Assembly (NCBI GenBank): GCA_963082975.1
Contig: OY720345.1
Span: 13,046,491 to 13,110,490 of the forward strand
Length of the DNA: 64,000 nt
Source of the DNA: Labia minor
Taxonomy: Eukaryota > Arthropoda > Insecta > Dermaptera > Spongiphoridae
Direction: 5' to 3'
Below, piece by piece: positions 31,907 to 57,012 of this stretch. Each line of letters starts with the position of its first letter. Position 1 is the first letter of the stretch. Under the pieces are notes generated by a model. The model was not told where the DNA came from. It made no database searches and saw nothing but the letters and a program-made list of their open reading frames with translations. Position numbers and translations under genes: made by a program.

Positions 31907-32386
31907 GAGCAATAATTCTCAAACTTTTTTCAACGGTTTAAAAATCTGGAGGCACACAAAGAAAAAGATAAGTGTAAAAGTTATTTATTTACCTATAATA
32001 CATAGGTTCTTAAACTTATGTACTCCACGGACCCCCACTTGAAAAAATTTTTTTTGACGGACCCCCATCACAACTTTAGGTACTTTACGTCATTTTATTA
32101 ATTAATTTCTGGCTTACGATCTCATAAGGACAAGGATATATGATGAATATTTCTAACAGTGATTGGTGAATAACGATTTTTTTGCATATTGTAGAACACA
32201 TTTTATTAGAAATTATAATATTGAAGAAAGAAAATACAAACATTGTCATAGCAACAAATCTCACAAATTATAATGGGTACTTACATTAAATTCATATAAA
32301 TATTTTATAATTTTTTTCAGAAAATATTAAATAAGAAATATTTTAAAAAATAACTGCATCTATCTCATTAAATATAACTTACATAT

Positions 32387-34246
32387 TTAATGAGATGTAT
32401 GCAGTTGTTTTCTTGAAACAAGAATCTCAATATCTGGCTTAATATTGGAAACTTTTAATCTAAGATCCGGCTCTACATTTAATTTGTTTCTATATTTAGA
32501 CTTAATATAAAATAGTACCGAAAAAGCTTGTTCGCATAAATATGTTGTGCAGAATGGAATCAAGTGTTGAAGTGCTTTATTTGCAAGCGCAGGATAATCT
32601 GACCTGAGAAGTAACCAAAAGTTGCTCAATTCAGTTTTGTTAAATTTTAGTTTATAAGTTGTATCACATGATAATTCCACGAGAATATCTTGTTCAGGTG
32701 CAGATAAATGTTTAGCATTTGTAATTTCCATATTAAATGGATCTCTGATCCAGTTATTGCAAGGATCAGGAGTAGAAAAATACTTCCTGAAGTTGCTTTT
32801 CAAAGTAATTAAATGTTCAACAAATAATTGACGCGTTTGATTAAGCAATTTTTCACTGGAGCTTTCTATGAAATCATTGAGAGTTGGAAAAGACTCATAT
32901 ACACCGTTCTGGATGCGTTTCGACCACAAGTCGATTTTTTTAATCATTGCTTCTATTTTATCTTCAACTTTAAATATATTTACAACAGTACCTTGCAGGC
33001 TCAAATTAAGTTCGTTCAATTTTGTAAAAATATCAGTCAAGTAAGCCACCTTAGCTAACCAGATAAAATCATTGAAACATTCGGTCAGTTCAAAATGCGC
33101 ATCTATTAAAAACAATCGTATTTCATCTCGAAGCTCAAAAAGGCGAATGAGTACTTTCCCGCGGGACAACCAACGTACATCTGTATGTAATAATAAATGT
33201 GTATGTTGACTACCCATTTCCTCACACAAAATTTTAAAAACTCTGGAATTAAGTGGACGAGCCTTAATGAAATTGACAATTTTAACTACTTCGTCTAATG
33301 TTCTTTTCAAATCTGGTGACATATTTTTGGCTGCTAATGATTCTCTGTGAATGCAGCAATGATTCCAAACAACCTGAGGCGCAACATTTTTAATAAGAGC
33401 AATCAATCCAGTTCTTGTACCTGACATTGCACGAGCACCATCAGTGCAAATTCCAACACATTTTGGCCACTCTATTTCATTTTCGGTTATAAAATTATTC
33501 AAACTGTTAAATATGTCATTAGCTGTCGTTCGTGAAGGTAGTGAATCACAAAACAATACATCTTCTTGTATTTGATTTTCAAACTCATATCTAATGAAAG
33601 CTAACAAATTGGCATTATTAGTGACATCAGTACTTTCATCCAATTGTAATGAGTAATAGTGACTTTTGCGCACTCTCGATATTAATTCTTCTTTTATATT
33701 ACATGACATGTCTTCAATCCTATTCTTAACCGTATCATTTGATAATGAAATCAAATTTATATCGTTTGCTGCTTTAGTTCCTAACATTATATTTGTAATT
33801 ACTTTTGTAGCAGGAAGAATTAATTGCTCTGCTATATTATGCGGCTTTCCTGCTTTAGCAATAAGTAGAGCTACTTCATATGATGCCATTACTGCTTTCT
33901 TACTCATACCACCAGATCCCGTCTTTACCATCAATTTCTGACTTGAATTAAGTTCTTCTTTTTTCATTTTAAAAAATTCGATAGACTTACTAACATGCTC
34001 GCTGTGCTTTGTTTGTAAATGACGTCTGAGATTAGCAGGTTTCATACTTTCATTGGATAAACTTTCCTGACATAGAACGCAGACTGGTCTTTCCACATCA
34101 TTGTTGCAAATATAAGTAAATCCAAATGATAAATAATCATCCGAATATTTTCTAGTTTTGCGTTTCTTGGTAGAGTTTGCTGTTGATGCCTCATCATCTG
34201 ATTCTTTCCGTTTCTGTGTTGAACCAGTTTGTAGCCAACGATCCAT
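32387..34246 (-). CDS. hAT transposase with BED zinc finger (619 aa), copy 1
   Basis: Single-exon transposase that would cut and paste the element carrying it, acting in the nucleus on its terminal repeats. It starts MDRWLQTGS after a basic linker-rich leader. The BED finger spans about residues 40-85 (C56, C59, H76, H81). The hAT RNase-H-like core shows LDESTD with D203, ICTDGARAM with D269, the CCIH motif (C297, H300) and the VRWLSRG block near 358. The C-terminal dimerisation region has WLLLRSDYPALA and CEQAFS with E572. D203, D269 and E572 are the expected catalytic triad. The overall layout is like the ZBED5/FAM200/SCAND3 relatives of hAT (recognised from memory). No stop, frameshift or missing key residue; identical to the protein at 54767. 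The start is chosen at MDRW, the usual beginning of this family. Confidence 0.96.
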   Translation of the reverse strand: MDRWLQTGSTQKRKESDDEASTANSTKKRKTRKYSDDYLSFGFTYICNNDVERPVCVLCQESLSNESMKPANLRRHLQTKHSEHVSKSIEFFKMKKEELNSSQKLMVKTGSGGMSKKAVMASYEVALLIAKAGKPHNIAEQLILPATKVITNIMLGTKAANDINLISLSNDTVKNRIEDMSCNIKEELISRVRKSHYYSLQLDESTDVTNNANLLAFIRYEFENQIQEDVLFCDSLPSRTTANDIFNSLNNFITENEIEWPKCVGICTDGARAMSGTRTGLIALIKNVAPQVVWNHCCIHRESLAAKNMSPDLKRTLDEVVKIVNFIKARPLNSRVFKILCEEMGSQHTHLLLHTDVRWLSRGKVLIRLFELRDEIRLFLIDAHFELTECFNDFIWLAKVAYLTDIFTKLNELNLSLQGTVVNIFKVEDKIEAMIKKIDLWSKRIQNGVYESFPTLNDFIESSSEKLLNQTRQLFVEHLITLKSNFRKYFSTPDPCNNWIRDPFNMEITNAKHLSAPEQDILVELSCDTTYKLKFNKTELSNFWLLLRSDYPALANKALQHLIPFCTTYLCEQAFSVLFYIKSKYRNKLNVEPDLRLKVSNIKPDIEILVSRKQLHTSH

Positions 34247-34470
34247 TTTATGGAGTAATTTATTAACATTGAACTACAATAATATAAATATAATATAAAT
34301 ATAATATAAATATAACGAATTATTATTTACTAGCTATGTTTTAATATGATTTTAAATGAATGTTTTAATATCATTTTAAATGAATGTTTTAAATCATTTT
34401 AATAAATGTTTTAAATCATTTTAAATAAATGATTTAATATCATTTTAAATGAATATTAATTTATATAATA

Positions 34471-34560
34471 AATATATTTCGTAATTTGATTCTAAAATAT
34501 TATTAATTTCGTAATTTGATTCTAAAATATTATTAATTTCGTAATTTGATTCTAAAATAT
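34471..34560. repeat. 30-bp minisatellite, three units
   Basis: Unit (minus-strand sense) TAATATTTTAGAATCAAATT plus ACGAAATTAA. Three units here, four at 54421-54540. This accounts exactly for the 30-bp size difference between the two hAT copies. Confidence 0.9.
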
Positions 34561-35639
34561 TATTAAAATAAATATTTTTTATTCATAAAACTAACTTATA
34601 CTTACTCTCAAAAACAGCCTTTCTGGGAAATTGCAAAATGTGTTTAGTGTTTTTATAAAATAATGATCATGCAAATTACACTAAAAATTAAAAAAAATTA
34701 TTAGCTATAATAAACTATTATTAGCTATAATTTAATTATAATTAATTAAATTAATAAAAATAATTTAAAGATACAACTCGTTGAGAAATGAACTTATAAT
34801 TAACATTAATAAAAATAATTTAAAGATACAACTCGTTGAGAAATGAACTTATAATTAACATTTGCTTTAAAACTGTTTAAAACCCCAGAGTGGACGCTGA
34901 CAATTTGGGTTTTTCCGGGTAAGACTGTCCCCTCCCCTGGTTTTCCCCAATAACAAAGTGAAAGAAAATTCCCTTATATGCCTCCCCTTCCGAGCCCCTA
35001 AGAGGGGTTATTTTAAAGGAACAATCGAAAAATGATTTTAAATGAATGAATGGATGAAAATTCAAATTTTATATATAGTTTTTTATATATGTTTATTTAT
35101 TCACAAAAAATTAATTGACATAATTATCAATTTAATAAAATAAAATAGTATTATTAATAGTATTAAATTATAGCCGTAATTCTCTAGGAGGATATAGTTA
35201 AACAATGAACTTTAAATATTTATATATGTATATATTTTTACGATGATTTTTTTCCGAGGACCGCGGACCCCCAGTAAAGGCTTCGCGGACCCCCAGGGGT
35301 CCGCGGACCACAGTTTAAGAACCACTGCTATAATAGACTGTGTAATATAGTTTAGGATAATAATCATAATTACCTTTTCAATAGTAGGACACATTTCTGA
35401 AATAATATAACAGGGGTGGGCACACTTGGTGATACCTAGAGCCATGTTGCAAAATTGAAAAAAAGTCGAAAATGTTTAAGAGCCTCTCGCAAAAACATTT
35501 TTTTTTACATACATATAAAATAATAAGTACTTTTTCTTAGTTTGAACTTTACATTTGTAAAATTTGGCAGCACATTTTGAAAATCTCGTGGTTGAGAATC
35601 ACTGAATTAGAGGGACAGGCGGCTTCTAGTCTTAATATA

Positions 35640-35689
35640 ATGAAGTTAGTTACAAATTAATAATTTTGGCAATTTGTAACTAACTTCAT
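35640..35689. repeat. Perfect 19-bp stem hairpin
   Basis: ATGAAGTTAGTTACAAATT (35640-35658) and its exact complement AATTTGTAACTAACTTCAT (35671-35689) enclose a 12-nt loop. It lies just outside the hAT nest. No flanking duplication found. Confidence 0.7.
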
Positions 35690-36479
35690 AATTTTTTTCA
35701 GACATCACATACATCCGACGGAAATTATATATATTGGTTTATCATTTTTATGGTTAAGATGCATTTGTTTAAAGATTTAAAAAAAAGAGTTAATAAAATC
35801 ACAAAATTGTAATTAGATAATAGTAACTAGTACGAGTGATTGTGATTTTGTGATTTATGATTGACTACCAATAACAAAATGGATAAGTAAATTTTTTACT
35901 TTCACTTTTTCTACTCATTTACCTCAATTTATTGATTTATAAAATATAAATAAATAGATAAAGATAAATGTTTAATTTCATATTACTTAAATATTATTAT
36001 TTGTAAAAATAAAATTTTCCATCATTTTTAATAATAATATTGCTGAGAGAAAAAAAAACACTTTAAAACACCTCAATTGAAGCAATATTATCAGGTATAG
36101 TTGTATTGACTTTGTATTTAATTTTAAGTGGATAATATTTTATTTACATATTTTTATATTAGTTTTGCGAGTTTGTTTTACGGGTAGGTAATGTGGACAA
36201 AGCAGTTAGAAATATTTAATAAATCCACCCCTTTTGTTCTTAACCCTCTGCTTTTCCTCATCTTCTCACACCACTTAAATATGCCCTTTTTCCTATTCTT
36301 CTTTAATCTCTCAGTTTTGTGAAGATTAGAATCTTTTCTTAAAAAACTTTTTCTGGTTAAAATAAAAAAAAAAGACAATAAGATAAAAAACCGACCGACT
36401 CGATTGAGATTGCATTGTCTCTTCTCTTTTTTGATCTTAATTTAAAATATATATCAAAGGATATTATAGATGTAAAAGG
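35690..36479. other. AT-rich DNA without recognised feature
   Basis: A/T-rich. The short frame at 36178-36378 has lysine/leucine-biased sequence and no domain. Confidence 0.5.
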
Positions 36480-37040
36480 ACAAAAGATTTATTAAAATGG
36501 TTTGATTAGATCCATCCACCCCCACCCACCCCCTCTCTCTTTGGTCGTAATATGCTTTCCCTTAGCCTCTCGCCAACCTCATCCTACCCCTTCCCTTCCC
36601 TCAGGGTAATATCCAGTTGGCACAACGGGGTCTCTTTTTTTCACTCAAGATAACCCCCCACCTCCCTCCACACCAGTCCTCTTACGCTTGTTGCTTGCTT
36701 TTTTTTTGTGAGATTAAAAAAATAATTTAAAATTTTTTATGATCAAAGTGAATGTTTTTTTTTATAGATAATTAATATTTGTTTTAAATTATGCAAATAT
36801 TAAATTTTTTAAAAAAATTCACAATTTCACCCAAAGATGATGATGATGATGATGTGCTCAGTTAAAATAAATGTAAGTAATAAAATTTATATATATTTTT
36901 AATTATTATTTGAAGTGTCCTCTAATCATATGGACAAAATGATAAAATTGAAGACACACACACACACACACACATTTATACACATATCATACTAAATACA
37001 ATATATTTTAAATTATGGTAGGTTAGAAATATGTTGCTAA
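36480..37040. repeat. Pyrimidine-rich island 10, (ATG)n and (CA)n
   Basis: C/T-rich top strand at 36510-36690 (CCACCCCCACCCACCCCC, then CTTCCCTTCCCT). (GAT)n at 36837-36854 and (CA)n at about 36953-36974. Otherwise A/T-rich. Confidence 0.55.
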
Positions 37041-37248
37041 AGTCCGGTAGCTAAGAGTTGGTGCGTGAGGGGTGACGGCCAGGAGAGAAGGGGGTGTTTT
37101 CCCCTCCACCGTAGTCTTCTACTCTCTCAAACTAAAATATAAAAAATTTATTATGAGTTATGAGCAACTAAGTTGCGGGGTGTGGTTTTCTAGGAATGGT
37201 GGGGGAGGGTGGGGGTGGGCTCATGCACCAACTCTTACCTCCCGGACT
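37041..37248. mobile_element. Possible MITE with about 30-bp inverted ends
   Basis: AGTCCGGTAGCTAAGAGTTG-GTGCGTGAG at the left pairs with CTCATGCACCAACTCTTACC-TCCCGGACT at the right, with four or so mismatches. TA lies near both edges. 208 bp, G-rich interior, no other copy seen here. Confidence 0.5.
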
Positions 37249-37499
37249 ATATTAAAAATAGAATTTATTTAAATGATAAATTCTATAATTGATATTTACA
37301 ACATTACTAGCAATATATATTTATATATTATTTATTCAATATGAATTTATGAATTAATTAATTTTCAAAATGTCTTTTTGAATAATGATTTTTGTTTTTA
37401 TTAATTAAATAAAGATTGTGATAGAATAATAGATGTATCTATATGTAGATTGTATCCTATTTATGTATAATATACATACATAATATTCGTATTCAGATA

Positions 37500-37880
37500 A
37501 GGGTAAGTAGTCAAAGATTGTTACCTCCCTTCTTCCTCCCTCACGCACTTTCCTATGTAGCCATTCCGTTGTGTGTCTATCTCTGCTTGCGTCGCTATCT
37601 CCATTTCTCTATCTATCTATCGTTCTATGTCAGTCATATATATTCGTTCAGGGATTTACACCTCATGTATACATTTGGAACCCCTTCCAGACCTCCTATC
37701 AGCTCCTAGGACCGTACGACCATCCAGGGAGCCATACCATTAATATAGACCGCTACTTCCGCACCTCCCCCCCACCTTTGTTTCTACCCCTCCGGTTGGT
37801 TTATTTCCAAACCCCCGCCCGCCTATCCCACCCTTCAACGCACACTGCCTTGTCATCTTGTATTCATATGACTTAGATTA
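37500..37880. repeat. Pyrimidine-rich island 11
   Basis: Balanced to C/T-rich sequence with CTCCCTTCTTCCTCCCTCAC and (CTAT)n near 37608-37625. Two overlapping frames of 60-100 codons in this patch share no motif with any family and are biased by composition. Confidence 0.5.
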
Positions 37881-38997
37881 TATATTAGTTAGAATATTAC
37901 TATATTAGCTAATACGCTTGTTGTGGTTGTTTTTTTTTTGTTTTATTTATTTATTTATTTATTATTATTTTTTATAATACCCATTCATTCATATACATTT
38001 ACCCCTTTTAGTTAGTCAACTAACTATGTTACCGTTAATTAAAGACGTCCCATTCATTATCTTGTTACTCTTAAATCAACGCCATGAAAATTAACAAAAA
38101 ATAAAAAAAAAATAACAATAATAATAACAAATAAATTAATATTATATAAATTAATTAAAAATTGATTGCTATTGATTAAATAACGGTCAATTTTAATTAA
38201 TAAAAAATGAAAAAATTAAAAATTTTACATTTTTCTTAAATTTCAATAATAAAATAAGTTCTTTGAATTATTTTATGTGTTTAATTGAACTGATATTATA
38301 ATAATTAATGAATATTTATTTATCTATTTCTGATTATTTCAATTTAATTATTCTAGTTTATTTTTTGTAATTATATTAGAAAGTTTAAATTTGTAATGAT
38401 AGAATGTCTATACTATTTTCTGAAAAAAAAAAATAAAAAAAAAAAATAAAAAATTGATAGATATAATTATGAAATTTATGTATCAATTTATTATTATATT
38501 GTATTATACATTTAATTATCCTTTTAGTTATAGGTTAGCTAGCTAGTTAGATTTACTAGGTACATATAATTAATTTTAAACTATTATTGTAAGTGTATAA
38601 TAATTATAATTTATAATATTAATAATAATAAAATTATCATCATCATCATCATCATCATCATTTTATGATTACTTAAAAATAAGAATTGTAAAATATATAC
38701 AAGTGAGTGTGCAATCTGATCTGGCATGTAATTATCTGTGTAATATTAGTAGTTAATAATGGAATGCCTTATTGGGAGGAGAGGATGATCAGGTCAGTTA
38801 ATTAAGCCTACCCATTTATCTCTCCATCCCTCAAACTACTCTCTCCTACGATTATTTATAATAAAATATCAGCGAGTTTATATTAACCATTAGTTAATTA
38901 TCAAATAATATTGATTTATCCTATATTATATTTTATTAAATATTTTATAATAAAAGATGATTTTCATTTATAATAGCAATATTTAATCTATCTTTTT
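37881..38997. other. AT-rich DNA with (ATC)n
   Basis: A/T-rich throughout except (ATC)8 at 38638-38661 and a small mixed patch at 38765-38850. Confidence 0.5.
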
Positions 38998-39420
38998 GGC
39001 TGTACGGAACTCGAAAGTTCTTGGCCGCCACCACCATCCAACTCCTACCCTCTCCCATCTCTTTTATATCCCTTTCTACATTATCCACTCACTGCGTCCT
39101 TGGTCTTTCATCCGGACGTTTCCCAATCGGTCTCCTCACCAATATATATTTTCGCCATTCTTTCTTCTCCCATTCTAGCCACGTGCCCTGTCCATCGCAG
39201 CCTTCTCGATTTTATAATTCTAACTATATCTGGAGATGCATAAAGGTCATGCAATTCCTCGTTATGTAGTCCCCGGGGACCTCATCTTTTTTTGGCCCAT
39301 AAATGCTTTGAAGAATACTATTCTCAAATACTACTAAATCTACCCTCGTCCCCTAAGGTCATAGACCATGCCTCACACACATATAATACAACCTGCAAAA
39401 TAATTGTTTTATATATTTTA
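38998..39420 (-). pseudogene. LINE reverse transcriptase C-terminal fragment, copy 2
   Basis: In minus orientation the order is TTGCAGGTTGTATTATATG, GTCTATGACCTTAGGGGAC, GGCCAAAAAAAGATGAGGTC, CAGGGCACGTGGCTAGAATG, CGTCCGGATGAAAGACCAAG and AACTTTCGAGTTCC, parallel to the Helitron-borne fragment at 51235-51875. Encoded pieces include FMGQKKMRSPG, then shifted G-VARMGEE and LGK-RP-GRP-like blocks. Many shifts; dead. Confidence 0.82.
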
Positions 39421-40720: not shown

Positions 40721-40916
40721 CAATTTGACCAGACAATTGTAAACTCATGTATAAATACCGTCAGGTCATAAAAAAAAGCTTCATAAATAAATACATAGGT
40801 ACATATTTAACATATAAATTTAATCACACAAAACTTTTCGATGCATTAAATCTAATTAACTACAATATTAATATTTATTTATTTGAAATGTTTATAAAAA
40901 TGATTAACACTTTATT

Positions 40917-41490
40917 ACTATCTCGTAAGAGATAGTATTGCGATCACGAAAATTTTCGATGTTGAGATTTTGATGTTTTTATACGTTTTAAAGGTTCCTG
41001 AATCATTTTCACTAAAGTTGAGAAAAATGTCTGTGTGTATGTATGTACCAAGATTACGCAAAAACGGTTTGAGCTATAATGATGAAATTTGGTACATGGC
41101 CATAGTTTTCTATCAACTTTTGAGAAATGTAGCTCAACCGGAAGAGGGTCATTACCTACAACGTTTTGATTTTTTTTCTTCTAAAGCGACCGTAAAAATA
41201 AAGATATTTGCTTGATAGTTTTTGACATGATTAAAGATTGTATAAAACTGCTATATATAGAATTTCAGCTTGATTGATTCGCTGAAATTACAAGAATTAA
41301 TTTTTTAACACTGCAAATCTCTCGCGCCAATACGTGACGTGGTGCCATCAACAAAAAACCAAACATGCGCTGCTTTAATATTTATTATTTATAATTTATA
41401 ATTAATTAAATTTAATTTAAATATAATATATTATGTTATTTAATCCAATTCAATTTGCGAGATAGTCGAGTGGAGACACTCCAGCTATTT
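40917..41490 (+). mobile_element. HA element copy 6, complete reference copy
   Basis: Left: ACTATCTCGTAAGAGATAGT hairpin, whose first arm is the 5' subterminal repeat. Right: inverted GCGAGATAGT at about 41458-41467, then hairpin GAGTG-GAGA-CACTC (41468-41481) and CAGCTATTTTTT (other copies CAGCTTATTTT). Internal TG-rich tract at 41031-41047. CACGTCACGTATTGGCGCGA-like sequence (complement) lies at about 41318-41350. No frame. Architecture as in HB, consistent with a Helentron-associated (DINE-1-like) element; classification is inference. Confidence 0.88.
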
Positions 41491-41985
41491 TTTTTTTAAA
41501 TTTAATAAGAATTATATATTTTTTATATGGTTAAATTAAATATAAATAACATATGATTGGCTATTAAAAATCAAATTAAAGTAAACGTAGCAGTAGTTGA
41601 CCGCCTTAAGAAAAAATTTCATAAAAATACACTATTATTCTGTAACAAAAGTGAGAATAACAACAAAACAAGTGCTAACACATATTGTATAACTATTTTT
41701 AATTATCATAAAAACACAAATATTCGGTTAATGAATATTTAAATATTTTTTTTTTAATTTTTTTCTAAACTTAATTTTTTTTTCTACTAATTGACCATCT
41801 TAAAATCTAAAGTTTTAGAAATTGACCATATTTTGACCCAATAATTGATCACCAACCTAAAATAGGTTTTAAATAAATAAATGAAATAAAATACACTAAG
41901 GATTGGTTTTATTATAATTTCTTATAATTTATTTTAATTCTTCTTTATATTTACAGTTTACATCGGGACATTTATTGTTTTACTA
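41491..41985. other. AT-rich DNA without firm feature
   Basis: A/T-rich; the frame at 41557-41742 is lysine/asparagine-rich with no domain. CAACCTAAAATAGG at 41852 resembles the patch at 22095. Confidence 0.45.
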
Positions 41986-42281: not shown

Positions 42282-42818
42282 TAAATTTGAATTGGATTAA
42301 ATAAAATATATTAATTTAAAATAAATTAATTAAATTATAAATTAAAATTAATAAATAATATTTATTAAACCAGCGTATGTTTGGCTCTTTTTTGTAGGAA
42401 CCACGTCACGTGTTGGCGCGTGAGATTTGCAGTGTTAAAAAATTAATTTTGGTACTTTCAGCGATTCAATCAAGCTGAAATTCTATATATTGCAGTTTTA
42501 TACAATTTTTAATCATGTGAAAAACATATATCTTTATTTTTACGGTCACTTTAGAGGAAAATAAAACAAAACGTTGTAGGTAATGACCCTCTTCCGGTTG
42601 AGCTACATTTCTCAAAAGTTGAGAGAAAACTACGAATTTTGAATAATACCCATGTACCAAATTTCATCATTTTAGCTCAAACCGTTTTTGTCTACATACA
42701 CACAGACATTTTTCTCAACCTTAGTGAAAATGACTCAGGAACCTTCAAAACATATAAAACATCAAAATCTCGACATCGAAAATTTTCGTGATTGCAATAC
42801 TATCTCAGGCGAGATAGT
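42282..42818 (-). mobile_element. HA element copy 7 (right end missing)
   Basis: Minus-strand start ACTATCTCGCCTGAGATAGT and full interior through the ATTTAAATTAA block, ending at CAATTCAAATTT. The terminal right subterminal repeat and hairpin are replaced by AAACCGTGTAAAATGG-type sequence (42235-42281), which may belong to another element. Confidence 0.85.
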
Positions 42819-43185
42819 AAAAAGTTTGAAGGAAAATTACACTCACAAAATATAGAAATATAATATTATTATATTTATAATATGAATTATGAGGAAAATT
42901 CAAAAATGACAATTTTATTTTTTCGTTTCAATATTTTGATTTTTTGTTTAAATTTGATATTTTAATGAAGAAATTAGATATTATAACTAAGAGTCATATT
43001 TTATAAATTTAATATGGAAAAAAATCAAAATGCAAATATATTCTCGTTTGATAATAAATTGGTTCATTTCTCAAACAGAAGATGTGTCTTCTGTCGCTCT
43101 CTCACATTCTAATGAATGAGAACTGTCTCTTCGGCCATTTAAAGGCTCAAATAGTACAGGATTTAGCCATTAAATACAACAAGTG

Positions 43186-43229: not shown

Positions 43230-43872
43230 GGATTCTCTTAACACTCTCCCATCCTCTTGTCGACTGTCGCAATCCCTCTCTCTCTCTCTCTTGTACCTTT
43301 GCTAATATTTCAAGGTAGGCTAATTAGATATTAGACTTGAAGCAGCTAACAGAGACATATATGCCCTCAAGGCAGCAACAATTCCAATTTATAACAATAC
43401 AAATATTTGTCGCGAATAAACTACTATACAATGTCATACGACACAAAAGATCATTTAAGAACATTTTGAATAATTATATAGTATGAAATTAGCAATTTGA
43501 AACAAAAGTGATAATTTTTTACTCTTGAATAGAGATAATTAAATTTTTAATTTTATTTTAACTTTTTTTATACACATATGAATATTATTATTATCAAATA
43601 TTATTTATTAATATATTATTATTAATTATAATCAAAAATAATAATATATAATAATAAATTCATTAAAGAGTAAACATACTTTCCTAGCAGATGTGCTTTG
43701 GAATTTTTTTAAAAACTATTGAACAACTTCCTTATACCAACCAATATTATAAGAATAGACCAAAAGAACCTCTCACATAGTCAAGCAGATCTACAAACCA
43801 CAAATAATCTGAAATCGTCATACAGGCTAATATGAACTTGCTTTTCGTATTGACAAAGTGTGGCATCTAAGA
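42819..43872. other. AT-rich spacer with (TA)n and mixed patch
   Basis: (TA)20 at 43187-43226 and (CT)n at 43272-43290 within a mixed patch (43070-43400). The rest is A/T-rich. Frames reading across (TA)n give alternating YI residues and are artefacts. Confidence 0.5.
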
Positions 43873-44457
43873 AATAAGCTGGAGTGTCTCCACTCGACTA
43901 TCTCGCAAATTTGAATTGGATTAAATAACATATATTATATTTAAATTAAATTTAATTAGTTATAAATTATAAATTAAAATTAATAAATAATATTTATTAA
44001 ACCAGCGCGTGTTTTGCTCTTTATTGATGGCCCCACATCACGTGCTGGGATGTCATTTGCAGTGTTAAAAAATTAATTCTGCTACTTTCAAAGGTTCAAT
44101 CAAGCTGAAATTCTATATATAGCAGTTTTATACAATCTTTAATCATATGAAAAATTATTAAACATATATCTTTATTTTTACGATCACTTTAGATGAAAAA
44201 AAAAAAACGTTGTAGATAATGACCCTCTTCCGGTCGAGCTACATTTCTCAAAAGTTGATACAAAACTACGAATTTTGAATAATGCCCGTATACCAAATTT
44301 CATGATTCTAGCTCAAAACGTTTTTGAGTAATCTTATCTATTATACATACACACACAAATCTAGACACACAGACATTTTTCTCAACCTTAGTGAAAATGA
44401 TTCAGGAACCTTCCAAACGTATAAAAACATCAAATTCTCGACATCTGGCGAGATTGT
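43873..44457 (-). mobile_element. HA element copy 8
   Basis: The minus-strand right end is complete (GAGTGGAGACACTCCAGCTTATTT). At the left end about 30 bp of the hairpin region (TAGTATTGCGATCACG and adjoining bases) is deleted, joining GCGAGAT... directly to GTCGAGAATTTG; only ACAATCTCGCCAGATGTC is left. Confidence 0.87.
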
Positions 44458-45161
44458 AAAAATAAATATTTGAGGAGGTGAAATTAAACCAGAAATATTA
44501 ACTGACTAGCTTACTATTCTTTTTTATTTGATTTATTTAAAATAATTATTAATTTTAAAATTAAATCTTATTTCTATGATGTGTGTAATAACTAATTTCA
44601 TTTAATTAATTAAAGTAAAATTATGTACTTATATATATATAATTCCTATAATTAATATTAATTTTATATTTATTATAAACCATTCTGAGTGATGATTTCA
44701 CAGTGACTCAGATATTTAATTCAGAGTTTATAAAAGTATGATTTACAGACAATTTAAAGATGGCTTGAAATATTAAATTCTAAGCAATGTATGTATGTAT
44801 ACCTTTTCATACAAGAAATATATATTATAAATAGATTTAATATAAAAACTGGTTGTTTAGAAAGATATGTTAAGAATTGTGATGATTGGAGAGTTTTATA
44901 CCAAAAATATAATAATTTATTTTAATATTTATTGATATAGCCCAGGCATGTCGAACCTTTTTCAATGCCTGTGCCACAAAATTATAATAAACCTTTTTGA
45001 AGTAACTAACACATGCCATGATTTTTTTCTCCACCACATGTACCCCTTTTAGCTTGAATATATAATGAAATATTTTTATATAACTTGTAATTATCCTGTA
45101 TAAAAGTGTTATAATTTTAAATATTAAACTTTATACCAAAAAAATAAAATGATTATTAAAT
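44458..45161. other. AT-rich DNA with a hAT-like end
   Basis: Mostly A/T. CAGGCATGTCGAACCTTTTT at 44947 with GTGCCACAAAA further on resembles the left end of a hAT MITE; no right end was found before HB copy 3. Confidence 0.45.
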
Positions 45162-45814
45162 AAGTTGACCTGTGTCCAGGTCCGAACCGACCGACGGTTT
45201 GAAATAAATTAATTTCCAGCTACAGAAACAATTTCAAATAATTTTAATATATCTATTAATGTAATAAAAAACAGATATGGATATAACATAAATATTTTTA
45301 ATTTTATTTTATTTATAATATATAGCTGAGGTAGCCGGCGTTGCCGGCGTTACCCGAGGCTGTGACGTCATGAAGGGCTGGGTGACGTCATATAATTTTA
45401 AATTAAGAAAAACATAATGAAGATGATTTTTCCCGAGGAAAAAACCAATACATTTGTGGTGATATGTAAAAAAATCTCCTTATGTGAAGAAAATAACCCT
45501 TCCCTTCTTATCGTCGATCGCTAATACTACCACTTCCGGTTTCCGGATTTGCACCAAAAGTTGATCAATTCATCCCACTGATGCATTAAGTAAATATACC
45601 AAATTTCATCAAAATCCGTTAAGCCGTTCAGGCTGTACACATCTATACGGACGGACGGACGGACAGACGGACAGACGGACAGACGGACGGACAGACATCA
45701 TGCTAAAAATACTTTTTTCTGTTAAGAAAATGCATGATTCGTGGAGATATGTAAAAATATCCACATGTGAAATTTGGTGTGAAAACAATACCTCCCTTAC
45801 TATCGTCGGTCGGT
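45162..45814 (-). mobile_element. HB element copy 3, complete
   Basis: Minus-strand start ACCGACCGACGATAGTAAGG and end CCGTCGGTCGGTTCGGACCT plus hairpin partner and CAACTTATTT. Minisatellite of GGAC/AGAC units at about 45653-45692. Near 45325-45355 it carries an extra GC-rich insert (GTAGCCGGCGTTGCCGGCGT) not seen in copies 1 and 2. Confidence 0.87.
45363..45390 (-). promoter_or_regulatory. Paired TGACGTCA sites in HB copy 3
   Basis: TGACGTCA at 45363-45370 and 45383-45390, again 20 bp apart, with a different 12-nt spacer sequence from copy 2. Confidence 0.6.
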
Positions 45815-47040
45815 AAAAATTTGGAATTTATATGTGGTAAAAAAATATATCTTTCTTAAAAATTGTATATCATTTTTTTTATTTTTATTGAATGGAAATT
45901 CTTTAATTGATTTTAATTTGTGTAGTCTTTAGTTGTTGATAATGACCAAAAAGCAAAATTTAAATCTAATTCCGTGAACCACTTACGTTTTCTTGTTTTG
46001 ACAATGCTATGTTAAATTCTAGACAAAGATTGCGATTCTGGCACTATTCTCCTACCGTCCTTTGGACAATGTAAAGCTTTGTTAAGCTTGATATAAATTT
46101 TAAAATGAATGTTGAATGTTTTTATACTTCTAATTTTATAGAATGTTTTTTAAAACTTTATTTGATACATTTTCAATGAACAGAAATAATAATAATTTCA
46201 ATAATTTTATATTATATTCATTTGGTATATATTATTTTTTAAAATTTTAATTATTTTTTAAAATTCAATCCTTTCTATTTTTTTGATTATTAACATTTTA
46301 AATGAATATAAAATTTAATTAAAATATATAAATCCAGTGTAAATATAATTTTTATTGAACATATTTTTTATTTAAATAAATAATAATTACATTAACTTTA
46401 GTTTTAACTTTAAATATTTGAATACTTACAATAATATGTCTTAAAACTTGAAAAATGATTAGAATGAAAAAATTGAATAATTTTTACAAAAATTTACATA
46501 GTTAACAATGGGTGTACTATACGAACAAATTGATAATTTGAATATTTTATTATTATTATTATTATATTATATTATTTAAATTTTATAATGACTAAATTTA
46601 AAATATAATAAAATGTTTACTTTCATTTTTTCTTCATTTATTTTTATAGATTTATATATATAAAATATTTAGAAATAGTTTTTGTAATAAATTTTTAAAA
46701 ATATAGATCACAAAGATTATAAATTTATATTAAGATGCAAGTAATTTGTTTATTTATATAGGTATTTTCTTTTATAATTTATTTTAATTATGGATCATAT
46801 AATAAATATTTGTATATATGACATAGATTTCAATTTATATTATTATTAATGAATTGATAATTATTTTTGAAATTTTGTAAAATTTTATAATAGGTTAGTT
46901 TCTTTAATTAAAGCAATTAATATTATTATTTATTGAATTTTAATAAATTTAATTAAACTTTTAATTAATTTAATTTAAATTAATTTATTAATTAACTTTA
47001 TTTATTAATTGATTTGTAGTAATTCATTTAGTCTCTACTT
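45815..47040. other. AT-rich DNA without recognised feature
   Basis: A/T-rich with one mixed patch at 45960-46085 lacking any coding or repeat signature. Confidence 0.5.
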
Positions 47041-47409: not shown

Positions 47410-47410
47410 A
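47041..47410. repeat. Mixed island 13 and (TA)n
   Basis: Purine-rich patch 47110-47260 (GGTAGGGGTAGGAGGGTTTGG) followed by (TA)24 at 47360-47407. No gene. Confidence 0.5.
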
Positions 47411-47931: not shown

Positions 47932-47946
47932 TAAAATTTTATATAA

Positions 47947-48041
47947 TTATAATTATATAATTTTTTTTATTTCTGATATATATATATATATAAATTTATA
48001 TAAATCATTTAATTAGAAACAAACTAATAAAATAAATATAA

Positions 48042-48079
<38 letters not shown>

Positions 48080-49080: not shown

Positions 49081-49082
49081 TA

Positions 49083-49470: not shown

Positions 49471-49967
49471 TAATATAATGTATATATTTATTAATTATTA
49501 ATTATTATTAATTATTATATTAGAAAATAGTTACAATATATGATATTTTATATTATATATATTATTAATAATAATAATTTTGAACTAAATAATTAAAATA
49601 AATTCAGCTTAGATGTTTAGTATGTTCACTTTCGAAAATCACCAAACAAATATGTAAGATTTTAATGTTATAATTTCTATATTGAGGGCTCTAAAATATA
49701 ATATCTTATATATAAAATTCTCGTGTCACAAAACTTTGAAATCATACTCCTCCGAAACGGCTTGACCGATTCTTATGAAATTTTTTATGTATATTCAATA
49801 GGTCTCAGGGCATGTCAGACTTCCTTTAGAAAACCGCTAATTGGTAAGGTGTGTCCAGGAAATGCTAATTAATTAAAAATAGTTTAGTTACCATACTAGC
49901 TCATAGAGGCACTGGTGGCAAAAATTTGAAATCTTATATATACCCTTATAAGAAGCTTCTAAACAAA

Positions 49968-50056
49968 AGCGGTTCCTGGCCGAGCGAGCTAGCGCGTCTT
50001 CTTATGACTCAGGGTGCAGGGTGCAACCCTGAGTTCGAAACTTGGAAAGGCACATT
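49968..50056 (+). other. tRNA-like pol III promoter module in Helitron H1
   Basis: A-box-like TGGCCGAGCGAGCTAGCG and B-box-like GAGTTCGAAAC about 45 nt later, with a GGGTGCAGGGTGCAACCC inner repeat. The H2 counterpart (about 52367-52440) has the same boxes with a 14-nt shorter middle. It resembles tRNA(Leu/Ser)-type SINE heads; whether it is transcribed is unknown. Confidence 0.55.
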
Positions 50057-50149
50057 TTTTTCTTTAAGTATTATATATTTTTTTTTTAAATTTATTAATT
50101 TTTATTATTTTAATATTTTATTAAATTAAATTTTATTATTAAATTTTAT

Positions 50150-50380
50150 TTTATTAAATTAATAATTATGTCAATTAATTTTTTCTGCATAAATAAACAT
50201 ATATAAAAAACTATATAAAATTTGAATTTTCATTCATTCATTTAAAATGATATTAAAATATTCCTTTGAAATATAATAAATAATTAAATTAATCCCTACT
50301 AGGGCCTCGGGGGGGGGGGGGAGGTAACTTTCTCTTTTTGGAAAAACCCATAATGCCATCCCCAGCTCGACTATCTATAT
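50150..50380 (+). repeat. hAT 5'-region fragment captured by Helitron H1
   Basis: ATTATGTCAATTAATTTTTT, AAATAAACATATATAAAAAA, CTATATAAAATTTGAATTTT and CATTCATTCATTTAAAAT match the hAT copy at 53845-53950 almost base for base. Further on, CCCTACTAGGG-CCTCGGGG-GAGG parallels CCCCTCTTAGGGGCTCGG-GGGGAGG. It is diverged, so captured earlier than the intact insertion in H2. Confidence 0.78.
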
Positions 50381-51234
50381 ATAAAAAAAGGTTTTTGTCT
50401 GCATATTGCTCAGAATTTAAAAATTATTATAATATTTCACTTTTTATTTTAAATTCTAATATTTAAATATCAATTAAATTAAATAATTTATTCTAAAAGT
50501 TCTCATTTAAATTTATTTAATAAAATATTTAGATCATATTTAACTTAATTTTTATTTATTATTCTTTCTATATAATTGAATATTTCTTCTTTTCTATTTG
50601 AAAGTGAAAGCTTAAAAAAACTGAATATATTATTTTTAAACTTTTATCAATACAAAAATATTTTCAAAACTTCAATTAAAATGACAAAATTTTATTATTT
50701 TTGTTTTTGTTTCAATTATTAATTACAAATATATTTTAAGTGCAAAAATGATTTCTTGGTTAATTAAAATATGTTTTTTAGACAAATGATATTACGAGAT
50801 GTTTTAAATTTATGTCTTTTTTATTTTGAGTATTTTTTTTTAAAATTAAAATTTGTTTTAAATCAAAATTATTGTATTCTATTATATTTTTTTATTAATA
50901 GACTTCTTTTTTTTATTTTTAATTTTTAATAAATTCTCTTTTTTGATATGATATTAATAAAAAATAATATTCAATTGTATTTAAATTTAAAAATTAGAAT
51001 ATTTGAATTTTTTTAAATTTTAACACATGTAATCATCAATCATATGGATAACGAATGGAACATTTTGAAAATCAAGTTGGTATTAAATTCAGAAAAAAAT
51101 ACTGATATATAGAATATAATAGACCATTCGAATATAATTTAAAACTATTTATCTCCTTTTATTTTAAATTTAAAAAAAGGGAGTGTTAAGAAATTAATAT
51201 GCCTGGATAGGTAAATGGGCTGGAAGAGGAGATA

Positions 51235-51875
51235 ATTTATAATTTTCTTCTAATTCAGATTGAAATTAATGGTGATAAGAAAAAATATTTAGTAACAAAA
51301 TCTATATACAAAATGTAGAATTTGAATATGTAGAAAAATTGAATGTAATCACGAAGGATAATAATATTTGAGAAGAATATATATATTTAAATCGAAGTTG
51401 TACTCGGGAAACGCCTGTTATCATGCAGTAAAGAGGCTTATCTCATCAAAATTATTATCAAAAGGAATCAAAATTAAAATATATAAACCAATTATTTTGC
51501 CTTTTGTATTATATGGGTGGGACGCAAAGGTCTATGACCCTGGGAGATGAGAGTAGATCCAGAGTATTCTTTCCAGCATTTATTGGCCAAAGAAAGATGA
51601 GGTCACCGGGGAATGGCGGAGACTGCACATCGAGGAATTGCATGACCTCTATGCATCTTCAGAAATAGTTAGGGTTATAAAAGCGAAAAAGCTGCGATAG
51701 GCAGGGGACGCGGCTAGAATGGGAGAGGAAAAAGATTTTGGATTGGAAAACGTCCGCTTGGAAGACCAAGGACGTGTAGGAAGGGACGTAAGAGAGATGG
51801 GACAAGGGCTCAGGATAGGGACACTTGGAGAAATGTGGTTGCTGCGGCCTAGAACTTTCGAGTTCCTTAGAGTCA
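51235..51875 (+). pseudogene. LINE RT C-terminus and 3' end captured by Helitron H1
   Basis: Frames read GNACYHAVKRLISSKLLSKG then IKIKIYKPIILPFVLYGW (the typical GNACYYAV--LLSS-LLS and TIILPVVLYG blocks), then a shifted GQRKMRSPGNGG, AARMGEE-like and RPLGRPRT segments. The fragment is shared with 5319-5463 and 38998-39420. Interrupted by stops; no activity possible. Confidence 0.85.
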
Positions 51876-52524
51876 CATAGATAGATAGATATAACATATA
51901 CAATAATAATATATATAATTAATTTAGTGATTAAATTAAAATGTATTTTAAATAAAAGAACACAAAAAGAAATGAATGTTTTATGTAATATACTGATTGA
52001 AACAAAATGGATGAAAACCTTTTACTCGGGGGGGGGGGGGTACAGGGGGCGGAGCCCCCGTCTAGGTGCGGAGAGCGCCGAAGGCGCTCGGGGCAGCTAG
52101 TCTTATATATAAAATTCTCGTGTCACAAAACTTTGAAATCATACTCCTCCGAAACGGCTTGACCGATTCTTATGAAATTTTTTATGTATATTCAGTAGGT
52201 CTCAGGGCATGTCAGACTTCCTTTAGAAAACCGCTAATTGGTAAGGTGTGTCCAGGAAATGCTAATTAATTAAAAATAGTTTAGTTACCATACTAGCTCA
52301 TAGAGGCACTGGTGGCAAAAATTTGAAATCTTATATATACCCTTATAAGAAGCTTCTAAACAAAAGCGGTTCCTGGCCGAGCGAGCTAGCGCGTCTTCTT
52401 ATGACTTTGCACCCTGAGTTCGAAACTTGCAAAGGCACATTTTTTTCTTTAAGTATTATATATTTTTTTTTAAAATTTATTAATTTTTATTATTTTAATA
52501 TTTTATTAAATTAAATTTTATTAT

Positions 52525-52660
52525 TAAAATAATTTTATTTTATTAAATTAAATTTTATTATTAAAATAATTTTATTTTATTAAATTAAATTTTATTATTA
52601 AAATAATTTTATTTTATTAAATTAAATTTTATTATTAAAATAATTTTATTTTATTAAATT
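52525..52660. repeat. A/T minisatellite expanded in Helitron H2
   Basis: Units of about 35 bp (TTAAATTAAATTTTATTATT plus AAAATAATTTTATTTTA) repeat about four times. H1 has a single equivalent near 50120-50160. Confidence 0.75.
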
Positions 52661-53655
52661 ATAATATTAAATTTTATTTTATTAAATTAATAATTATGTC
52701 AATTAATTTTTTCTGCATAAATAAACATATATAAAAAACTATATAAAATTTGAATTTTCATTCATTCATTTAAAATGATATTAAAATATTCCTTTGAAAT
52801 ATAATAAATAATTAAATTAATCCCTACTAGGGCCTCGGGGGGGGGGGGGGGGGAGGGGAGGTAACTTTCTCTTTTTGGAAAAACCCATATTGCCATCCCC
52901 AGCTCGACTATCTATATATAAAAAAAAGGTTTTTGTCTGCATATTGCTCAGAATTTAAAAATTATTATAATATTTCACTTTTTATTTTAAATTCTAATAT
53001 TTAAATATCAATTAAATTAAATAATTTATTCTAAAAGTTCTCATTTAAATTTATTTAATAAAATATTTAGATCATATTTAACTTAATTTTTATTTATTCT
53101 TTCTATATAATTGAATATTTCTTCTTTTCTATTTGAAAGTGAAAGCTTAAAAAAACTGAATATATTATTTTTAAACTTTTATCAATACAAAAATATTTTC
53201 AAAACTTCAATTAAAATGACAAAATTTTATTATTTTTGTTTTTGTTTCAATTATTAATTACAAATATATTTTAAGTGCAAAAATGATTTCTTGGTTAATT
53301 AAAATATGTTTTTTAGACAAATGATATAAACGAGATGTTTTAAATTTATGTCTTTTTTATATTGTAATTTTTTTTTAAAATTAAAATTTGTTTTAAATCA
53401 AAATTATTGTATTCTATTATATTTTTTTATTAATAGGCTTCTTTTTTTATTTTTAATTTTTAATAAATTCTCTTTTTTGATATGATATTAATAAAAAATA
53501 ATATTCAATTGTATTTAAATTTAAAAATTAGAATATTTGAATTTTTTTAAATTTTAACACATGTAATCAATCATATGGATAACGAATGGAACATTTTGAA
53601 AATCAAGTTGGTATTAAATTCAGAAAAAAATACTGATATATAGAATGTAATAGAC

Positions 53656-56600
53656 CAGTGGTTCTTAAACTGTGGTCCGCGAACCCCTGGGGGTCCGCGA
53701 AGCCTTTACTGGGGGTCCGCGGTCCTCGGAAAAAAATCATCGTAAAAATATATACATATATAAATATTTAAAGTTCATTGTTTAACTATATCCTCCTAGA
53801 GAATTACGGCTATAATTTAATACTATTAATAATACTATTTTATTTTATTAAATTGATAATTATGTCAATTAATTTTTTGTGAATAAATAAACATATATAA
53901 AAAACTATATATAAAATTTGAATTTTCATCCATTCATTCATTTAAAATCATTTTTCGATTGTTCCTTTAAAATAACCCCTCTTAGGGGCTCGGAAGGGGA
54001 GGCATATAAGGGAATTTTCTTTCACTTTGTTATTGGGGAAAACCAGGGGAGGGGACAGTCTTACCCGGAAAAACCCAAATTGTCAGCGTCCACTCTGGGG
54101 TTTTAAACAGTTTTAAAGCAAATGTTAATTATAAGTTCATTTCTCAACGAGTTGTATCTTTAAATTATTTTTATTAATGTTAATTATAAGTTCATTTCTC
54201 AACGAGTTGTATCTTTAAATTATTTTTATTAATTTAATTAATTATAATTAAATTATAGCTAATAATAGTTTATTATAGCTAATAATTTTTTTTAATTTTT
54301 AGTGTAATTTGCATGATCATTATTTTATAAAAACACTAAACACATTTTGCAATTTCCCAGAAAGGCTGTTTTTGAGAGTAAGTATAAGTTAGTTTTATGA
54401 ATAAAAAATATTTATTTTAATAATATTTTAGAATCAAATTACGAAATTAATAATATTTTAGAATCAAATTACGAAATTAATAATATTTTAGAATCAAATT
54501 ACGAAATTAATAATATTTTAGAATCAAATTACGAAATATATTTATTATATAAATTAATATTCATTTAAAATGATATTAAATCATTTATTTAAAATGATTT
54601 AAAACATTTATTAAAATGATTTAAAACATTCATTTAAAATGATATTAAAACATTCATTTAAAATCATATTAAAACATAGCTAGTAAATAATAATTCGTTA
54701 TATTTATATTATATTTATATTATATTTATATTATTGTAGTTCAATGTTAATAAATTACTCCATAAAATGGATCGTTGGCTACAAACTGGTTCAACACAGA
54801 AACGGAAAGAATCAGATGATGAGGCATCAACAGCAAACTCTACCAAGAAACGCAAAACTAGAAAATATTCGGATGATTATTTATCATTTGGATTTACTTA
54901 TATTTGCAACAATGATGTGGAAAGACCAGTCTGCGTTCTATGTCAGGAAAGTTTATCCAATGAAAGTATGAAACCTGCTAATCTCAGACGTCATTTACAA
55001 ACAAAGCACAGCGAGCATGTTAGTAAGTCTATCGAATTTTTTAAAATGAAAAAAGAAGAACTTAATTCAAGTCAGAAATTGATGGTAAAGACGGGATCTG
55101 GTGGTATGAGTAAGAAAGCAGTAATGGCATCATATGAAGTAGCTCTACTTATTGCTAAAGCAGGAAAGCCGCATAATATAGCAGAGCAATTAATTCTTCC
55201 TGCTACAAAAGTAATTACAAATATAATGTTAGGAACTAAAGCAGCAAACGATATAAATTTGATTTCATTATCAAATGATACGGTTAAGAATAGGATTGAA
55301 GACATGTCATGTAATATAAAAGAAGAATTAATATCGAGAGTGCGCAAAAGTCACTATTACTCATTACAATTGGATGAAAGTACTGATGTCACTAATAATG
55401 CCAATTTGTTAGCTTTCATTAGATATGAGTTTGAAAATCAAATACAAGAAGATGTATTGTTTTGTGATTCACTACCTTCACGAACGACAGCTAATGACAT
55501 ATTTAACAGTTTGAATAATTTTATAACCGAAAATGAAATAGAGTGGCCAAAATGTGTTGGAATTTGCACTGATGGTGCTCGTGCAATGTCAGGTACAAGA
55601 ACTGGATTGATTGCTCTTATTAAAAATGTTGCGCCTCAGGTTGTTTGGAATCATTGCTGCATTCACAGAGAATCATTAGCAGCCAAAAATATGTCACCAG
55701 ATTTGAAAAGAACATTAGACGAAGTAGTTAAAATTGTCAATTTCATTAAGGCTCGTCCACTTAATTCCAGAGTTTTTAAAATTTTGTGTGAGGAAATGGG
55801 TAGTCAACATACACATTTATTATTACATACAGATGTACGTTGGTTGTCCCGCGGGAAAGTACTCATTCGCCTTTTTGAGCTTCGAGATGAAATACGATTG
55901 TTTTTAATAGATGCGCATTTTGAACTGACCGAATGTTTCAATGATTTTATCTGGTTAGCTAAGGTGGCTTACTTGACTGATATTTTTACAAAATTGAACG
56001 AACTTAATTTGAGCCTGCAAGGTACTGTTGTAAATATATTTAAAGTTGAAGATAAAATAGAAGCAATGATTAAAAAAATCGACTTGTGGTCGAAACGCAT
56101 CCAGAACGGTGTATATGAGTCTTTTCCAACTCTCAATGATTTCATAGAAAGCTCCAGTGAAAAATTGCTTAATCAAACGCGTCAATTATTTGTTGAACAT
56201 TTAATTACTTTGAAAAGCAACTTCAGGAAGTATTTTTCTACTCCTGATCCTTGCAATAACTGGATCAGAGATCCATTTAATATGGAAATTACAAATGCTA
56301 AACATTTATCTGCACCTGAACAAGATATTCTCGTGGAATTATCATGTGATACAACTTATAAACTAAAATTTAACAAAACTGAATTGAGCAACTTTTGGTT
56401 ACTTCTCAGGTCAGATTATCCTGCGCTTGCAAATAAAGCACTTCAACACTTGATTCCATTCTGCACAACATATTTATGCGAACAAGCTTTTTCGGTACTA
56501 TTTTATATTAAGTCTAAATATAGAAACAAATTAAATGTAGAGCCGGATCTTAGATTAAAAGTTTCCAATATTAAGCCAGATATTGAGATTCTTGTTTCAA

Positions 56601-57012
56601 GAAAACAACTGCATACATCTCATTAAATATGTAAGTTATATTTAATGAGATAGATGCAGTTATTTTTTAAAATATTTCTTATTTAATATTTTCTGAAAAA
56701 AATTATAAAATATTTATATGAATTTAATGTAAGTACCCATTATAATTTGTGAGATTTGTTGCTATGACAATGTTTGTATTTTCTTTCTTCAATATTATAA
56801 TTTCTAATAAAATGTGTTCTACAATATGCAAAAAAATCGTTATTCACCAATCACTGTTAGAAATATTCATCATATATCCTTGTCCTTATGAGATCGTAAG
56901 CCAGAAATTAATTAATAAAATGACGTAAAGTACCTAAAGTTGTGATGGGGGTCCGTCAAAAAAAATTTTTTCAAGTGGGGGTCCGTGGAGTACATAAGTT
57001 TAAGAACCTATG
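53656..57012 (+). mobile_element. Complete autonomous hAT transposon, copy 2 (3357 bp)
   Basis: Target duplications TAATAGAC at 53648-53655 and 57013-57020 are identical. H1 carries the unfilled site as one TAATAGAC at 51117-51124. Ends, subterminal GGGGGTCCG words and 55-bp tandem duplication are as in copy 1. Four 30-bp units (54421-54540) instead of three give the only length difference found. Opposite orientation to copy 1. Confidence 0.97.
54767..56626 (+). CDS. hAT transposase with BED zinc finger (619 aa), copy 2
   Basis: Residue-for-residue identical to the product of the minus-strand gene at 32387-34246: BED finger C56/C59/H76/H81, catalytic D203, D269 and E572, C297/H300 motif, and C-terminal dimerisation block. 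It would excise and insert elements with CAGTGGTTCTTAAACT-type ends. It is the only gene in Helitron H2; orientation matches the Helitron. The upstream start context AAA-ATG-GAT follows about 1.1 kb of non-coding 5' sequence; promoter elements could not be picked out in the A/T-rich leader. Intact, so this copy or its twin may be active. A domesticated host gene is unlikely because the TIRs and target duplications are complete. Confidence 0.96.
   Translation: MDRWLQTGSTQKRKESDDEASTANSTKKRKTRKYSDDYLSFGFTYICNNDVERPVCVLCQESLSNESMKPANLRRHLQTKHSEHVSKSIEFFKMKKEELNSSQKLMVKTGSGGMSKKAVMASYEVALLIAKAGKPHNIAEQLILPATKVITNIMLGTKAANDINLISLSNDTVKNRIEDMSCNIKEELISRVRKSHYYSLQLDESTDVTNNANLLAFIRYEFENQIQEDVLFCDSLPSRTTANDIFNSLNNFITENEIEWPKCVGICTDGARAMSGTRTGLIALIKNVAPQVVWNHCCIHRESLAAKNMSPDLKRTLDEVVKIVNFIKARPLNSRVFKILCEEMGSQHTHLLLHTDVRWLSRGKVLIRLFELRDEIRLFLIDAHFELTECFNDFIWLAKVAYLTDIFTKLNELNLSLQGTVVNIFKVEDKIEAMIKKIDLWSKRIQNGVYESFPTLNDFIESSSEKLLNQTRQLFVEHLITLKSNFRKYFSTPDPCNNWIRDPFNMEITNAKHLSAPEQDILVELSCDTTYKLKFNKTELSNFWLLLRSDYPALANKALQHLIPFCTTYLCEQAFSVLFYIKSKYRNKLNVEPDLRLKVSNIKPDIEILVSRKQLHTSH

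Follow-up and report, generated by a model that had tools for sequence, protein, structure and literature searches.

Two near-identical hAT transposons of Labia minor as probable members of a recently expanded, mostly full-length Buster-type family

We have analyzed two full-length copies, A and B, of a hAT cut-and-paste transposon that lie in a stretch of 64,000 nucleotides of the Labia minor (Dermaptera, Spongiphoridae) genome (hereafter the window; GenBank assembly GCA_963082975.1, contig OY720345.1, C2:13046491-13110490). Both are very probably autonomous copies of a Buster-type hAT element that has recently grown to about 1,500 mostly full-length copies. A and B are ordinary members of this family and not special relatives of each other. 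Present movement of the family is only possible.

An earlier, sequence-only reading of the window had described two intact hAT elements of 3327 and 3357 base pairs (bp) with three and four units, respectively, of a 30-bp minisatellite. Alignment and the repeat finder TRF confirm the lengths and the unit numbers (3.0 units in A and 4.0 in B, with 100% match). A full alignment of A (32001-35327) with the reverse complement of B (53656-57012) holds 31 differing columns, 30 of which are the extra unit, while the last is a single substitution that the reading had missed; hence the many nucleotide differences that would speak against a recent origin are not there. A different change at the substituted position (53682/35301) was found in another copy, L049. 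Since the extra unit and the substitution both fall outside the open reading frame (ORF), the two transposases of 619 residues are identical, as the reading held. Its perfect target duplications (CTATAATA for A and TAATAGAC for B) and its opposite orientation of the copies also stand, and its spacing of 19 kb is corrected to 18.3 kb, edge to edge. Coordinates are collected in Table 1.

Copy B interrupts the second of two tandem repeats, of which the first has kept the empty counterpart of the B target. In a self-comparison of the window, the flanks of B match 49704-52111 and are broken by B alone; when joined, they align with the first repeat through one TAATAGAC at 51117-51124. B is therefore a real insertion and not an assembly duplicate. 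Between the two repeat arms, 15 of 1,804 aligned positions are substituted (0.83%; a further 12 gaps are present, and the array-rich part is left out), compared with 1 in 3,327 between A and B, and thus the insertion of B looks younger than the arm duplication. Helitrons have a 5' TC and a 3' hairpin followed by CTRR, and insert between A and T. Both repeats start with TCTTATATATAAAA (at 49704 and 52101) and end in the hairpin GAGCGCC-GAA-GGCGCTC followed by CTAG (at 52100 and 57969), and the outer bases flanking the tandem pair are A and T; on these terminal and target-site features we class the repeat interrupted by B as Helitron-like. A more diverged relative of it occurs at 26525-26767. 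TRF also reported a 37-bp array (4.6 units, 98%) at 52499-52669 in the second Helitron-like repeat and none in the first.

Copies of the hAT element were sought in the whole host assembly (604,477,936 bases in 71 contigs). The exact 41-bp left end was found at 1,541 places, the ORF start (3 or fewer mismatches in 43) at 1,593 and the exact right-end 43-mer at 1,509, with 0 places for the reversed-pattern control in each case. A nucleotide search with the complete element gave no match, the program passing over very frequent words, and the copies were recovered through these patterns and the protein. Some 1,500 copies of 3.33 kb amount to about 5 Mb, or near 0.8% of the genome. The proportions in which these landmarks pair rest on about the first 100 places listed, all on contig C1, and are valid for that stretch. 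In C1 0-40 Mb the ORF start lies 2232-2315 bp from the left end in 92 of the 97 left ends listed, and at exactly 2246 bp in 77; the remainder comprise pairs 701 and 4968 bp apart (one each) and three left ends with no ORF start. A right end follows within 5 kb for 93 of the 100 listed ORF starts and is absent for seven. Among the 93 paired ORF starts, 34 have the reference length, 16 are 30 bp shorter, five are 30 bp longer and 11 deviate by more than 130 bp. In large DNA-transposon families, dead copies or short non-autonomous ones usually predominate. Here the ends are not more numerous than the ORF starts, and short derivatives with both ends therefore look rare. A scan of the window for the 12-bp core of the terminal inverted repeat (TIR) gave 10 matches against 9.7 expected; the exact ones are the four termini of the two copies, and the window thus shows no short derivative.

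Two samples of copies were read. In a protein search, the best 71 of 3,642 first-look candidates were all open and 100% identical over 619 residues; these 71 scored matches were chosen by score and all lie on C1. The copies L001-L030 are the first 30 places on C1 and were chosen by the left end alone, not by protein. All 30 match copy A over 1,541 bp, 29 of them with 0-3 substitutions and one (L014) with a 14-bp gap.

Variation was measured in an alignment of 36 copies, namely A, B, 28 of L031-L060, which had been picked by protein score, and six of the eight left-end copies that were fetched. Left out were L034 (seemingly split by a further copy) and L047 (a deletion in the 3' TIR) from the former group and L002 and L007 (internal inserts) from the latter; L014 was left out of the substitution counts. 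The copies lie on average 1.86 substitutions from A, with a noncoding divergence from A of 0.102% per site, and differ from one another by a mean of 3.58 and a maximum of 12 substitutions. At most one substitution separates 12.7% of the 630 copy pairs. Copy A equals the column majority of 30 aligned copies and is identical to three of the 35 others (L038, L039 and L044). Coding divergence is biased low because of the choice of L031-L060 by protein score. At an insect mutation rate of about 3e-9 per site per generation, a divergence of 0.1% would correspond to a few hundred thousand generations, as a rough order of magnitude only.

The internal tandem arrays vary more visibly. One, two, three and four units of the 30-bp array are present in 1, 8, 22 and 3, respectively, of 34 readable copies (two of the 36 could not be read), and the unit number is unequal in 53% of sampled copy pairs. 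The kind of difference that separates A from B is the commonest length difference among the copies seen. The 24-bp array has one unit more in L033 and one fewer in L059 (no reading in L035 and L001), the 11-bp array has one unit fewer in 6 of 36 copies (no reading in L031), and the 55-bp duplication has one unit fewer in 4 of 36.

Decay of the ORF is neutral-looking. Within the examined 1,541-bp part, a stop occurs in two of 29 copies chosen by left end. Counted per copy, the coding changes in these 29 are five synonymous, 19 non-synonymous and two stop changes, with 20.8%, 74.1% and 5.1% expected under uniform mutation. A511T accounts for eight of the 19 non-synonymous changes, and with each distinct change counted once the numbers are 5, 11 and 2. 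The whole ORF is uninterrupted in seven of eight left-end-chosen copies read throughout; L009, with an uninterrupted ORF, carries D269V at a presumed catalytic residue.

The transposase has a C-x2-C and H-x4-H arrangement at residues 56-81. Its putative catalytic triad, located by motifs, would be D203, D269 and E572. The triad of TcBuster, D223/D289/E589, has the same D-D spacing of 66 as these candidate residues. The TIRs are short and imperfect and begin with CA (CAGTGGTTCTTAAAC / CATAGGTTCTTAAAC). In copy B the motif GGTCCG occurs five times in one direction, three times within the first 64 bp and twice within the last 63 bp. These motifs may be candidate binding sites of the BED-like finger, similar to the subterminal repeats of Hermes. 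Identical 8-bp target duplications flank all 28 of the 28 L031-L060 loci at which both ends were found, and five of six further copies read at both ends have a perfect 8-bp duplication; the target strings of L001-L030 were read only on the 3' side. The consensus of 55 distinct target strings is nnnTAnnn: all 55 have T at position 4, and 54 have A at position 5. Hermes targets are of the nTnnnnAn type. The target duplications of TcBuster are 8 bp long with the consensus nnnTAnnn (PMC3499496), and this integration signature points to a Buster-type hAT, under which we file the element.

Some variants appear to have been reshuffled among the copies. All four combinations of 911G>T and 3241T>A are present, and likewise of 127T>G and 911G>T; 3280A>T sits at the border of an A-run and a T-run and was excluded from the argument. 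Conversion between array units was rejected as the source of 911G>T, the 911T base being absent from the other units of its array. With moderate confidence, we attribute the reshuffling to probable exchange among copies, for which gap repair is the simplest occasion.

Several observations weigh against one or another part of this account. The noncoding divergence of about 0.1% is recent, and recent is not the same as this generation. Matches of the transposase to Pfam fall below the cut-offs, both for the C-terminal hAT dimerisation domain (PF05699; E 8.5e-4, 19.5 bits, cut-off 21.4) and for the BED finger (PF02892; E 0.0074, 16.7 bits, cut-off 20.6), and both sit at the expected places in the protein. 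Searches of PDB sequences with the transposase gave no match, and an AlphaFold model of the single sequence had a mean predicted local distance difference test (pLDDT) score of 34.1 and was unusable. L006 has a one-base mismatch between its two target duplications. Length changes are not all whole units: L035 has a 20-bp deletion in the 24-bp array, L001 has a 2-bp deletion, L060 likewise has a non-unit change, and length deltas of -69, -21, -2, +3 and +125 bp equal no small sum of units. The recombination claim is carried by three sites only, at which recurrent mutation is a possible source, and is made at that same moderate confidence. The very recent transposition proposed in the sequence-only reading is upheld by the roughly 1,500 near-identical copies, the perfect target duplications at 28 of 28 loci and the empty site for B.

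The closeness of A and B could be explained in two other ways. One is that they are a local pair, one derived from the other by a short hop in the region. They lie 18 kb apart with one substitution and one unit between them, and of 99 gaps between neighbours in the first 41 Mb of C1, 11 are shorter than 20 kb where 4.7 would be expected (P 0.006); in addition, 3171G>A and A329V each occur in just two of the 29 copies, which in both cases are neighbours on C1. However, A matches copies at three other places without any difference, and pairs with no more than one substitution (12.7% of 630) or with unlike unit numbers (53%) are common in the family. Nor is the sharing of variants between C1 neighbours significant overall (5 against 3.3 expected, P 0.21), and with limits of 10, 50 and 100 kb short gaps are not significantly more frequent than expected (P 0.09, 0.23 and 0.38). 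We consider descent of one from the other improbable; short hops may occur within the family, and A and B are not thereby parent and child. The other explanation is an assembly artefact, in which one copy would duplicate the other or be its collapsed consensus, for which the near-identity of the sequences and an array difference of a kind that assembly errors can produce might be cited. That explanation, foreseen in the sequence-only reading as an objection, fails on the unlike flanks and target duplications of A and B, and we hold it to be extremely unlikely. In addition, the paralogue of the B site in the adjoining tandem repeat is empty, and the 380-bp flanks of 30 copies gave only three short matches on one side, all inverted, and none on the other.

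How the expanded family originated is less clear-cut. Horizontal transfer shortly before the burst, as opposed to the revival of an old resident, is a real possibility, although we lean slightly away from it. In its favour, hardly any trace of an older layer of copies was seen: the ratio of 100 exact ORF starts to 97 left ends in C1 0-40 Mb predicts about 1,589 ORF starts in the assembly, and 1,593 were found, the test reaching to 3 mismatches in 43 of the ORF start, or about 7% divergence. Against it, about 100 AT-rich bp are common to the hAT element and the Helitron-like repeat, which suggests that both were already resident in one genome when the burst began. Within this stretch, 38 of 40 bases are alike at 53866-53905 (compare 50172-50211 and 52700-52739), and the version of the 40-mer belonging to the Helitron-like repeat occurs 601 times in the host genome. 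A transfer of the piece from one element to the other, within one host genome, is therefore probable. A filtered BLAST comparison of five Helitron-like loci with the hAT element gave no match, the stretch being AT-rich and the filter on; the sharing rests on the alignment and the 40-mer, and the self-comparison of the window also shows it. Pattern-based scans of viral contigs and prokaryote genomes confirmed no relative.

In two groups of copies the 5' noncoding part contains additional DNA. The first has a 638-bp insert at one position of the hAT element (3-bp overlap, 245-247), found at two genomic places with 638 of 638 bases identical; the insert is a copy of a repeat that is common in the window (89% to 10344-10964). 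One of these copies, L007, has its own target duplication GTCTAAAT on both sides, and the second has CAATAATA on the side that was read. With identical inserts at the same position and differing targets, the subfamily has therefore moved after gaining the insert. The second group has about 2.07 kb of extra DNA, and two places that were read show 0 substitutions in 2,068 bp and three small gaps; one copy has the target duplication CTCTACTG on both sides. The copies of this group (L002 with L062 and L069; L070) have the 5' tip CAGCGG compared with the usual CAGTGG. Their extra DNA shows only about 2 bp of overlap and may have been inserted, or may instead mark an older, longer form of the family. 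Retroposition with a 19-bp duplication was considered and dropped, as a stricter alignment left an overlap of about 2 bp. Among the 100 listed ORF starts, four belong to copies longer than the reference by 2,057 to 2,088 bp and two to copies longer by 641 bp, and two of each were read. In L034, which was read on the near side of the break only, the element is broken at position 139 and a second copy begins there in the opposite direction, and the next right end is 3,331 bp too far away, as if one copy lay inside another. L047 lacks 14 bases of the 3' TIR and has an intact target duplication.

In the mechanism we propose, the 619-residue transposase, with an N-terminal BED-like finger and the putative D203/D269/E572 triad, would bind the element ends through the TIRs and the GGTCCG repeats, cut the element out and integrate it at 8-bp nnnTAnnn targets. 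The number of copies would rise when excision gaps are refilled from the sister or from another copy, and this refilling, together with replication slippage, would change the four internal arrays, mostly by whole units, and reshuffle variants. We infer the transposase chemistry and the repair route. A broader and rather unlikely extension, prompted by about 1,500 copies with few short derivatives, is that mobility needs the whole element (for example the internal arrays, or a cis-acting transposase), that copies exchange segments during excision repair, and that the family would behave as a recombining population and not as independent lineages.

Among known systems, the hAT element resembles TcBuster (hAT, Buster; Tribolium castaneum) in its 8-bp nnnTAnnn targets (PMC3499496) and differs in its four internal tandem arrays and its roughly 1,500 copies. 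The mariner Rpmar0 of Rhodnius prolixus is described as a recent explosive burst of a single DNA transposon lineage to more than 8,000 copies in one genome (PMC4678618), and in this the two families are alike. Rpmar0, in contrast, is a mariner for which many deleted copies are stressed (PMC4678618), whereas here the ends do not outnumber the ORF starts. Galileo, a P-superfamily element of Drosophila, also has internal tandem repeats and variation among copies, ascribed there to slippage, template switching and gap repair (PMC4168063). It has long TIRs and many defective copies, whereas the TIRs here are short and the sampled copies mostly intact, and in D. willistoni its tandem repeats are reported in one copy alone (PMC4168063). 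Hermes, a hAT of the Ac family, has a BED finger and short subterminal repeats near its ends, to which the putative BED-like finger and the GGTCCG repeats of the present element may correspond; the subterminal motif is AAGT in Hermes (PMC10368747) and GGTCCG here. Among the published titles and abstract openings listed, none described a hAT burst of this kind, or hAT minisatellites or gap-repair exchange, which is not proof of absence. The family has been caught early, with about 1,500 near-identical copies that are mostly full length where sampled; its subfamilies, nested inserts and variable arrays make it a good natural experiment on the onset of bursts, the growth in copy number and the recombination of transposon copies. 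It might also supply an active hAT transposase for gene transfer.

Table 1. Coordinates of hAT copies A and B, their internal arrays and the surrounding Helitron-like repeats in the window
Feature	Position	Strand	Remark
hAT copy A	32001..35327	- (coding strand)	full length, 3327 bp
hAT copy B	53656..57012	+ (coding strand)	full length, 3357 bp
Target duplication of A, left	31993..32000		CTATAATA
Target duplication of A, right	35328..35335		CTATAATA
Target duplication of B, left	53648..53655		TAATAGAC
Target duplication of B, right	57013..57020		TAATAGAC
Transposase ORF of A	32387..34246	-	619 aa
Transposase ORF of B	54767..56626	+	619 aa, identical to that of A
5' end of B	53656..53720	+	TIR CAGTGGTTCTTAAACT; three GGTCCG (element positions 19, 37, 59)
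3' end of B	56948..57012	+	TIR; two GGTCCG (element positions 3295, 3325)
30-bp array in A	34476..34566		3 units (TRF)
30-bp array in B	54417..54537		4 units (TRF)
24-bp array in A	34336..34454		TRF
11-bp array in A	34279..34315		TRF
55-bp duplication in A	34743..34862		TRF
Sole A/B substitution	B 53682, A 35301		C in A, T in B (aligned strand)
First tandem Helitron-like repeat	49704..52100	+	empty counterpart of the B target
Empty site	51117..51124	+	single TAATAGAC
Second tandem Helitron-like repeat	52101..57969	+	interrupted by B
Part of AT-rich stretch common to hAT and Helitron-like repeat	53866..53905	+	

Other repeats are distributed over the window, whose Rfam and tRNA scans were empty. 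A palindromic repeat of 293 bp at 31614-31906, with ends TTAAGCCC...GGGCTTAA, lies 94 bp from copy A and is like a piggyBac-type miniature inverted-repeat transposable element (MITE) with a TTAA target. A large imperfect palindrome at 5943-6467 is about 85% identical to its own reverse complement; its ends TACTTGGGCTGAAAAGTCCCGGGA resemble a mariner-type terminus, and it is possibly a mariner foldback or a MITE. Another long self-complementary repeat (7996-8542) is 74% identical to its own reverse complement. A fragment of a mariner-type transposase occupies 14221-14688 (Pfam Transposase_1, E 1.8e-9), with related pieces near 1592-2211 and 62823-63501, and a run of exactly 200 N at 63522-63721 is probably a scaffold gap. 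The repeat of about 600 bp that is also carried inside the hAT subfamily with the 638-bp insert is found at 10332-10964, 40909-41494, 42284-42825, 43869-44445 and 58888-59527, plus shorter pieces. A second repeat family of about 670 bp is present at 16376-17054, 27501-28149 and 45146-45820, and two of these three copies contain a GACG/GTCC microsatellite detected by TRF.

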